DNA of 64,000 nt, from assembly GCF_019797745.1 (NCBI RefSeq), contig NZ_VOSI01000003.1, positions 124,001 to 188,000 on the forward strand, written 5' to 3'. This document shows positions 52,263-54,079 of the stretch, piece by piece. A program made the position numbers and the translations under genes. Position 1 is the first letter of the stretch. Each line of letters opens with the position of its first letter. The notes under the pieces were generated by a model. The model saw nothing but the letters and a program-made list of their open reading frames with translations, had not been told where the DNA came from and ran no database searches. The stretch is from Edaphocola aurantiacus. Its GTDB lineage: Bacteria > Bacteroidota > Bacteroidia > Chitinophagales > Chitinophagaceae.

Positions 52263-52411
52263 ATAGAATTTATTTGTTATAACTATCTATGTCTTAATGT
52301 TTTGTGAAAATATAATCAACGAATCCTGTATAAATAAATTCAATAGCAGAAGCCGGTTGTTTTATGGAAATTTGCGCTTCCCTCACCACTCCCTCAAGAA
52401 ACAACAGATCA

Positions 52412-53602
52412 ATGATAGATAAGCGAATATTGCCACTGGCCATCGGTGGTTTAGGCATCGGCACTACAGAATTTACCATTATGGGTTTACTGCCGGATAT
52501 GGCAAAATCATTACAGGTGAGCATTCCCGAAACAGGACACCTCATTTCGGCCTATGCTTTAGGCGTAGTGATCGGGGCACCCTTACTCATCGGCTATGCC
52601 GTAAAGTTCCCGCCCAAGAAGGTACTCATTGCCCTCATGATCCTCTTTACTATATTTAATGCATTATCTGCACTGATGCCAGGCTACTGGTCCATGCTTT
52701 TTGTGCGTTTCCTATCCGGTCTGCCGCATGGTGCCTTCTTCGGAGTAGGTACAGTTGTGGCCTCCAGGCTGGGAGGGGCAGGAAAGGAGGCTCGGTACAT
52801 TGCCCTCATGTTCACCGGGCTTACCGTTGCGAATCTCGCCATGGTACCCCTGGTTACCTATATAGGGCATACGTATCACTGGCGCTGGTACTTTGCCATT
52901 GTAGCCCTGATCGGTTTGCTGGCTCTATTGTCTCTGTACCTCTGGTTGCCGGTGATGGAGAACAAAGAAGGTGCCCACTTCCGTGACGAGCTTAAATTCC
53001 TGAAAAACAAACAGAGCTGGTATGTACTGCTGATTACCGCAATCGGTTTCGGAGGACTGTTCAGCTGGCTGAGTTATATTACCCCGCTCATGACCGATAT
53101 AGCCGGAGTGTCCAAAAATAATATGGCCTATATCATGACCCTGGCTGGCGGCGGCATGGTAGTCGGCAACCTGGCCGGTGGTTACCTGACCGACCGCATG
53201 GGTGCCGCAAAGGTGAGTATCGTTTTACTTTGCTCCATGATGATTGCACTGGTTGGGGTATTCTTCTTTTCTGCCAGTCAGCCCGTATCATTAGCATTGA
53301 CCTTTATCTGTGGTGGATTGTCGATGTCTATTGCCTCTCCGGTCAATATTATGATGATACGTGCAGCACCCAATGCTGAAATGATGGCCGCGGCCTTTAT
53401 GCAGGCTGCCTTTAATGTAGCCAATGCCCTGGGTGCTTTCCTGGGGGGCATTCCGCTGGAGTTTGGTCTGCCTTATAACTATCCGGCGCTGGTAGGTTTC
53501 GGGATGACCTTCATCGGATTGATGATTGCTATGGCTTATGCCCGAAAATATACAGGGGTGCAGGTAGCGCCGGTGACAGAGGAATCATTGATACAAAAAT
53601 AA
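52412..53602 (+). CDS. MFS transporter (DHA1 / AraJ-like efflux)
   Basis: The 396-aa integral membrane protein has twelve hydrophobic helices. The N-terminal GGLGIGTTEFTIMGLLPDMA and the LISAYALGVVIGAPLL segment are characteristic of the AraJ/YdhP (sugar or drug efflux) subgroup, and VGNLAGGYLTDRMGAAKV in the middle is the intracellular motif A-like loop of the second half. Substrates are probably small organic compounds or drugs; none can be named. The ATG at 52412 is preferred because upstream codons from 52364 add a polar N-terminal tail. It is divergent from the T9SS gene. Confidence 0.9.
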   Translation: MIDKRILPLAIGGLGIGTTEFTIMGLLPDMAKSLQVSIPETGHLISAYALGVVIGAPLLIGYAVKFPPKKVLIALMILFTIFNALSALMPGYWSMLFVRFLSGLPHGAFFGVGTVVASRLGGAGKEARYIALMFTGLTVANLAMVPLVTYIGHTYHWRWYFAIVALIGLLALLSLYLWLPVMENKEGAHFRDELKFLKNKQSWYVLLITAIGFGGLFSWLSYITPLMTDIAGVSKNNMAYIMTLAGGGMVVGNLAGGYLTDRMGAAKVSIVLLCSMMIALVGVFFFSASQPVSLALTFICGGLSMSIASPVNIMMIRAAPNAEMMAAAFMQAAFNVANALGAFLGGIPLEFGLPYNYPALVGFGMTFIGLMIAMAYARKYTGVQVAPVTEESLIQK

Positions 53603-53797
53603 AAAGACATTGCTGGCACGCGCGCACGCTAACCCTGGCCGAACGGTCCGATGCAATCGGACCAATTTTCCAGGTCTTAGTGATCCCTTCGGAACACTAA
53701 GACCTGGGTGCCAAAACCCGTTCGTTGAGGGCCTCGAAGCGAACAGATCGGTATTCGTGTAGATCTTCCAATAGATATTCATAGCGTGCATTATAAA
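53603..53797. repeat. Structured intergenic element with nested inverted repeats
   Basis: This gene-free stretch holds several exact dyads. Hairpin 1: GGTCCGAT (53645-53652) with 53656-53663. Hairpin 2: CCAGGTCTTAGTG (53670-53682) with 53695-53707, 13 bp, 12-nt loop. Hairpin 3: GTTCG (53720-53724) with 53740-53744, with inner pairs. TGGCAC (53614-53619) can pair with 53708-53713, and GCACGCTA (53624-53631) with TAGCGTGC (53782-53789). It is more GC-rich than usual intergenic DNA here. It may be a dispersed palindromic element or a structured RNA; sequence alone cannot decide. Confidence 0.6.
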
Positions 53798-53825
53798 AAA
53801 GGGCACCGGATGTCCGGTGCCCTTT
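53798..53825. terminator. Bidirectional terminator with 13-bp stem
   Basis: Bases 53798-53810 (AAAGGGCACCGGA) pair with 53813-53825. A-rich sequence lies on the left and TTT on the right. It closes the MFS gene and its downstream element, and the DUF3606-like gene on the other strand. Confidence 0.82.
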
Positions 53826-53878: not shown

Positions 53879-54079
53879 TTACTCATCATTCAATCCTAAA
53901 CGATCTCTCAGGTAGCGTTCTACCTTTTCCGGATGGTCACCGACTGCAGTGATAGCAGCCTGTATTTCAATCTGTTCTACACCCAGTAATTCCACCAGAA
54001 ATCCGGATTTCAGGGAATAGTCCTGTTGCATATGATTAACAGTAACGTTGTTTTCATGTTTATTGCGCTCATTCATCAT
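53879..54079 (-). CDS. Small DUF3606-like protein
   Basis: The 66-aa peptide reads MMNERNKHEN..., then DYSLKSGFLVELLGVEQIEIQAAITAVGDHPEKVERYLRDRLG. The second half has the spacing of DUF3606 (a short helical domain with LGV..EEL..AV..VG.....V...L). DUF3606 has no known function. The start could be either of two adjacent ATGs (54079 or 54076). It lies 32 nt after the antiporter gene's start side reading away from it, with no clear operon partner. A real gene is likely because of the family match. Confidence 0.62.
   Translation of the reverse strand: MMNERNKHENNVTVNHMQQDYSLKSGFLVELLGVEQIEIQAAITAVGDHPEKVERYLRDRLGLNDE

Follow-up and report, generated by a model that had tools for sequence, protein, structure and literature searches.

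The stretch at positions 53603-53825 of the window, by which we mean the whole 64,000-nt piece of Edaphocola aurantiacus DNA that was analysed, is very probably a truncated and partly decayed copy of a dispersed repeat, a REP/REPIN-like element resembling the atypical ones of Bacteroidota. We read it as most likely a very small DNA parasite, and not as a gene for a dedicated RNA. One of its hairpins, A, is dispersed in the genome, recurs in a set order with a second hairpin, B, lies beside a RAYT transposase gene in two species, and shares its fixed apex with hairpins whose stems covary. In what follows, the window's own genome is labelled G000 and its nearest relative G001, and 39 genomes were compared in all. 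We found no published description of these repeats in the open-licence literature (titles and abstract starts), where the phrase 'repetitive extragenic palindromic' never occurs together with Chitinophaga, nor Edaphocola together with 'repeat'.

Hairpins of the intergenic stretch and their copies

The stretch lies in a 276-bp gap between two convergent genes, which the initial annotation had called MFS and DUF3606-like. The first assignment is clear, whereas the second rests on a score below the curated cut-off of its family. The three hairpins described there, a 13-bp perfect one, an 8-bp one with a 3-nt loop (53645-53663) and a bulged one at 53720-53744, are all present. The features of the locus are as follows:

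52364-53602, plus strand: MFS transporter gene, the convergent upstream neighbour (PF07690, MFS_1, E 6.7e-51)
53611-53644, unstranded: left flank, which recurs at the corresponding place in G001, with similarity extending into B', to about 53658
53645-53663, unstranded: hairpin B' (GGTCCGAT-GCA-ATCGGACC), the partner of A, with an 8-bp stem and a 3-nt loop
53668-53709, unstranded: hairpin A, a REP-like palindrome with a 13-bp stem (53670-53682 with 53695-53707), an internal mismatch and the minus-strand apex TGTTCCGAAGGG
53719-53744, unstranded: hairpin D (CGTTCGTTGAGGGCCTCGAAGCGAAC), bulged, another dispersed repeat (pattern GNTYRYTGAGGNNCTCGAA)
53798-53825, minus strand: terminator-like hairpin, a 12-bp stem with a T-run on the minus strand only, outside the repeat
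53879-54079, minus strand: DUF3606-like gene of 66 aa, the convergent downstream neighbour (PF12244, 22.7 bits against a curated cut-off of 24.3)

When the stretch was searched against G000, three further places matched it in part, and what they have in common is hairpin A. A gapped pattern of A occurs at six sites in G000, at two in G001 and at one in G003, there with an unrelated loop, and is absent from the other 36 of the 39 genomes. The reversed pattern, used as a control, gave one site each in G015 and G030 and none in the other 37 genomes, and the true pattern did not occur in 100 shuffles of the window. The initial annotation had proposed a search of the genome and its relatives, in which multiple copies with flanking duplications would support a mobile palindrome; further copies of A are found in both G000 and G001. 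Its suggestion of a dispersed palindromic repeat is thus borne out, with A at six genome sites, mostly accompanied by B, and D at five.

A covariance model, R1, was made from eight A copies. The window hairpin, itself one of these seeds, scores 58.2 bits on the plus strand and 37.5 bits on the minus strand. With at most 150 candidates scored per genome (150 of 211 in G000), which makes all counts lower bounds, R1 identifies at least seven strong sites in G000 at E <= 2.5e-10, six of them seeds and one new (C3:734011), and at least three weaker ones with E from 0.0016 to 0.018. There are at least four sites in G001 at E <= 4.5e-6, including two seeds, and at least one weak site; weak matches (E 3.4e-5 to 0.094) also occur in nine other genomes. 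A is a short, dispersed, imperfect palindrome like a canonical REP, present at six pattern sites and intergenic at the window copy, for which position was checked. Its copy number, at least seven strong and at least three weak sites in 3.69 Mb, is low for REPs, the canonical kind being high-copy. The internal mismatch is constant, in that no Watson-Crick pair stands just above GTG/CAC in any of the eight rows of alignment A2, as judged by eye.

The pattern of hairpin B, CCGATNNNATCGG, occurs at 22 sites in G000 against seven for the reversed pattern. Going by coordinates, 12 of these 22 are no more than 45 bp away from an A site, whether strong or weak. B stands beside six of the seven strong A sites found in G000, the exception being the RAYT-adjacent copy described below. 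It is not specific: G002, which has no RAYT match, carries 12 B sites against six for the control, and several other genera also exceed their controls. The D pattern GNTYRYTGAGGNNCTCGAA has five sites in G000, six in G001, one in G007 and none in the remaining 36 of the 39 genomes. A tighter pattern of A was also scanned against a sequence collection that may lack entries close to the genome of the window. It occurs there twice within a single Edaphocola flava contig and once in Leptolyngbya. The latter match, in Leptolyngbya sp. PCC 6406 (L113:2956-2999), is a perfect palindrome with a 20-bp stem that holds GGTCTTAGTGTTCC and matches the A stem, and it may reflect coincidence or transfer.

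The RAYT gene and the four-hairpin composite

G000 contains a single Y1_Tnp match, a 190-aa open frame at G000:C1:482848-483420. The protein passes the NCBIfam model REP_Tyr_transpos (NF047646) by one bit (81 bits against a cut-off of 80) and contains HIH and YLHQNP, which we take to be signatures of RAYT proteins. An A site recognised by R1 starts 40 bases past its stop codon. The arrangement 3' of the stop is an inverted hairpin of another type, C, immediately past the stop codon, followed by A and then by a second C, and a further C lies upstream of the gene; the C-A-C piece folds into one long hairpin with A inside. This RAYT-adjacent A, surrounded by C hairpins and unaccompanied by B, is thus not the composite described below. 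The RAYT of G001 is 97% identical to that of G000 and shows the same hairpin arrangement. The two genes differ by three synonymous and five non-synonymous changes (NG86 dN 0.011, dS 0.028), too few to say much about selection. G002 and G004, of the same genus, have neither a RAYT match nor A.

The C hairpins were modelled as R2 from 11 seeds picked by eye out of a CTRGCGY-type search, so that the conserved foot of the model is partly there by construction. Among 150 candidates scored in each of six genomes, R2 matches at E <= 1 number at least 18 in G000, at least 28 in G001 and at least two in G025, and there are none among the matches listed for G002, G003 and G024. The left flank of the window element (53610-53632) was considered as a degraded C-type REP; it looks similar by eye, but R2 gives no match there at E <= 10, and the assignment was rejected.

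The best copies of the element elsewhere read A'-B-B'-A, i.e. A', B, inverted B and A in this order, where A' is a CTRG-CGTGAGTG hairpin. They lie at G000:C2:3.1k, G000:C3:733.9k and G001:C10:257k, the second B of the last being one base off. The A' pattern has two sites in G000, two in G001 and none in the other 37 genomes. Two inverted REP-like hairpins in this order and orientation are seen in these three copies; the window copy, which has one A, keeps B'-A, lacks A' and B, and has other material in front.

A fixed apex with covarying stems

The RAYT of G003, a genome of the same genus, is only 35% identical to that of G000 and is also flanked by hairpins. They are of the GTTCGGGATGTTCCGNAGGGCATCCCGAAC type, two upstream, one of which has a masked arm, and one downstream (contig C8; L118:735-767, ~996-1024 and 1783-1826), and they combine the apex TGTTCCGNAGGG found in A with a different stem. 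The same locus also holds the short hairpins GACATGCGCTACGCTAACATGTCGAAC and GAGCATTGCAAATGCTC.

Searching for the apex as TGTTCCGNAGGG(N)CA gave 28 matches in nine of the 39 genomes, 20 of which are distinct, readable in both arms and stemmed (G000, G001, G003, G009, G013 and G017). Those dropped are the matches in G038, G008, at G001:C8:385032 and two in G006, which have no such stem, a G003 match in which one arm is masked, a G003 duplicate and one G013 match that was not retrieved. With five A copies added by hand (the window, L012, L014, L016 and L019), the set comprises 25 rows. Paired stem cells amount to 283 of 325 against a mean of 223 (maximum 240) in 500 column shuffles. Two-sided changes number 72 against a shuffle mean of 27 (maximum 41), again in 500 column shuffles. 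These results, the pairing percentage included, are inflated by the choice of rows as hairpins, by their relatedness and by the two of 13 pairs that the search pattern fixes. The complementary stems found under the apex TGTTCCGNAGGG include CTTAGTG, CGTGAGTG, GGGATG, GAGATG, GACATG and CAGATG, and it is difficult, despite the inflation, to see how else several distinct complementary stems would come to carry a single apex. For A alone, seven cells show two-sided changes, a value reached in none of 500 shuffles, and the paired cells and the covariation score likewise exceed all 500. The remaining two of five measures, the number of pairs with a two-sided change and the number of pair types, fail to separate A from the shuffles, being reached in 83 and 108 of 500.

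At the base of the hairpins, the foot reads YTR in 23 of the 25 rows, and as CTG in 15 of them; the window copy has CAG. The GT[AG]G foot is found in none of the 25 rows, so that the tag of canonical REPs is absent from this set. The apex hairpins of G009, G013 and G017 do not lie beside the RAYTs found there, and the RAYT locus of G013 (L138) has no apex match.

Ten RAYT loci of other genomes were also searched for hairpins with stems of at least 12, and five had any. The hairpin lies about 60 bp upstream of the RAYT in L024, about 110 bp downstream in L028, about 745 bp downstream in L022, and inside the gene in L030. In L026 (G028:C157, same order), an identical hairpin stands on both sides of the RAYT (349-882), at 51-81 (267 bp from the gene) and at 1157-1187 (274 bp from it). 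As relatives of A these hairpins were discarded, their sequences being unrelated to it by eye.

Most of what is established about REP/RAYT systems concerns the GTAG-footed repeats found in Proteobacteria. In Bacteroidetes, the structures on either side of TnpA_REP genes of subclass 2.6 are described as atypical, as lacking GT[AG]G and as having copies elsewhere in the genome, and the passages on this class speak only of 'atypical secondary structures' (PMC6006769). By analogy, the present case fits that description. As in subclass 2.6, or RAYT group 5 (PMC6006769), the host belongs to Bacteroidota, the RAYT is flanked by hairpins without GT[AG]G, and these have copies elsewhere; A flanks the RAYT and is copied in G000 and G001, and G003 has its own version. 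The protein itself is identified at the level of RAYT (NF047646). The A'-B-B'-A composite and the common TGTTCCGNAGGG apex do not appear in the passages that describe the subclass (PMC6006769).

The Pseudomonas REPINs, for which inverted REP pairs have been proposed as the mobile unit, are alike in having two inverted REP-like hairpins around a pairable spacer and a RAYT with adjacent repeats, as far as they are described in PMC3116915. The Edaphocola element differs from them in having far fewer copies, a spacer made of two hairpins (B and B'), A' and A stems that differ from each other, and no GTAG foot. In published systems, TnpA_REP is described as binding the folded single-stranded REP, needing a foot motif and cutting beside the REP, and the E. 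coli enzyme as requiring a stem mismatch (PMC8266576). The imperfect palindrome with a stem mismatch and the mosaics of several palindromes are shared with the E. coli REP/BIME system, whereas the GTAG foot is missing here and the stem and loop sequences, compared without alignment, are others (PMC8266576).

The A family thus has parts like those of the published systems: dispersed imperfect palindromes, a stem mismatch, a constant apex, an inverted A'-A pair and a RAYT beside one copy. We infer that the RAYT recognises and mobilises these repeats. The targets of the G000 enzyme are most likely the A (and C) hairpins in folded, single-stranded form, which it would have scattered through intergenic space in the manner proposed for TnpA_REP. 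More tentatively, Chitinophagaceae may possess a RAYT/REP system of their own, in which the transposase would read the fixed apex TGTTCCGNAGGG and the YTR foot while the stem is free to covary; the Edaphocola packing would then be a four-hairpin REPIN, A'-B-B'-A, and the window copy a relic of it. The fixed-apex, covarying-stem family offers concrete substrates for asking what such a RAYT reads.

The syntenic gap and alternative readings

In G001 the antiporter beside the syntenic gap is 98% identical, and all that can be recognised of the stretch is a shortened remnant, some 50 bases from its left part. The local alignment of 53611-53680 with G001 scores 52, above the maximum of 41 for mononucleotide-shuffled queries (n = 300). 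Exact words shared between the G001 gap and A, B, D or the DUF3606-like gene are at most 10 bases long. Next to the antiporter homologue, G007, G004 and G003 have, as judged by eye, other sequence.

That the hairpins end or protect the MFS mRNA and are kept for this role, whatever their origin, is unlikely. The gap is convergent, effects of REPs on the stability and termination of mRNA have been reported (PMC6006769; hypothesised in PMC3733652), and a terminator-like hairpin does stand at 53798-53825, where a separate terminator had been annotated. However, this hairpin fits the minus strand only and would therefore serve the DUF3606-like gene and not the MFS gene, hairpins A and B have no T-run, and neither of them is kept in the G001 gap. 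On the REP-like reading, any effect on the RNA of the convergent genes would be incidental.

A structured small RNA, or a 3' UTR regulator of the MFS gene, is a quite improbable reading, although the stretch follows directly on the MFS stop codon and folds strongly as a whole. Its folding z is -6.8 on the plus and -7.15 on the minus strand, with none of 200 shuffles folding as well, values that include the terminator-like hairpin and hairpin A. No Rfam family is found, the only match up to E 1 being GIR1, which reaches 15.5 bits where its gathering score is 100, and a single promoter-like site compares with a shuffle mean of 1.6. The same hairpins recur at unrelated loci, and the G001 gap keeps some 50 bases of the left part but no recognisable A, B or D. 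The small RNA suggested in the initial annotation thus finds no family and no conserved syntenic copy, and the covariation belongs to a repeat at unrelated sites. With the REP-like reading, no RNA gene need be invoked.

We consider it highly improbable that the stretch is a MITE of a DDE-type insertion sequence with the GCACGCTA inverted repeats as its ends. The long-range pairings in question exist and cross each other: TGGCAC (53614-53619) complements GTGCCA (53708-53713), and GCACGCTA (53624-53631) complements TAGCGTGC (53782-53789) over 8 perfect base pairs, 150 nt apart. As closing stems they are no better than chance, as judged by counting exact inverted matches separated by 30 nt or more in 1000 dinucleotide shuffles. 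Eight distant 6-bp matches are observed against a shuffle mean of 4.4, with at least one in 96% of shuffles and eight reached in 14%, and the one distant 8-bp match has its like in 18%. Moreover, neither GCACGCTA nor TAGCGTGC is present within 250 bp of any of the 11 other A copies checked, no checked copy is bounded by the same ends, and the A family sits at a RAYT; terminal inverted repeats are therefore not retained as a feature. A chance cluster of unrelated palindromes is barely credible: the long-range stems are indeed at chance level, but the A pattern is absent from the window shuffles, its reversed control is near zero against six true G000 sites, B accompanies A at six of seven strong sites found, and the repeated copies already refute it.

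Other small repeats appear to be gathered beside the window relic. The DUF3606-like gene (53879-54079) is missing at the same place in G001, where likeness resumes just before the start of the gene, and the G001 gap contains about 340 bp of another repeat. We found no clean pair of empty and filled sites for the A family. By eye, a syntenic comparison of L011:1501-1600 (G000) with L015 (G001:C8:525k) shows an extra C hairpin in G000, flanked by the repeated GGAACACTAAG half of A and absent in G001, possibly an insertion or a recombination scar. A dispersed, AAAAGCT-rich repeat, some 300-390 bp long and ending on one side in a C-type hairpin, takes up part of the syntenic gap in G001 and also lies at other places in G000 and G001, with 73-92% identity (L033:3966-4303 in G001:C9, L107:269-618 in G000:C1, and L079 and L070 in G001:C8). 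A further dispersed repeat (GGAGATATCTCC ... GTCGATATGACG / GTCATTTCGAGC ... CGAGAAATCTCC) adjoins several A and C copies, at L016:1272-1395, L016:1543-1580, L019:1396-1440 and L012:2339-2372.
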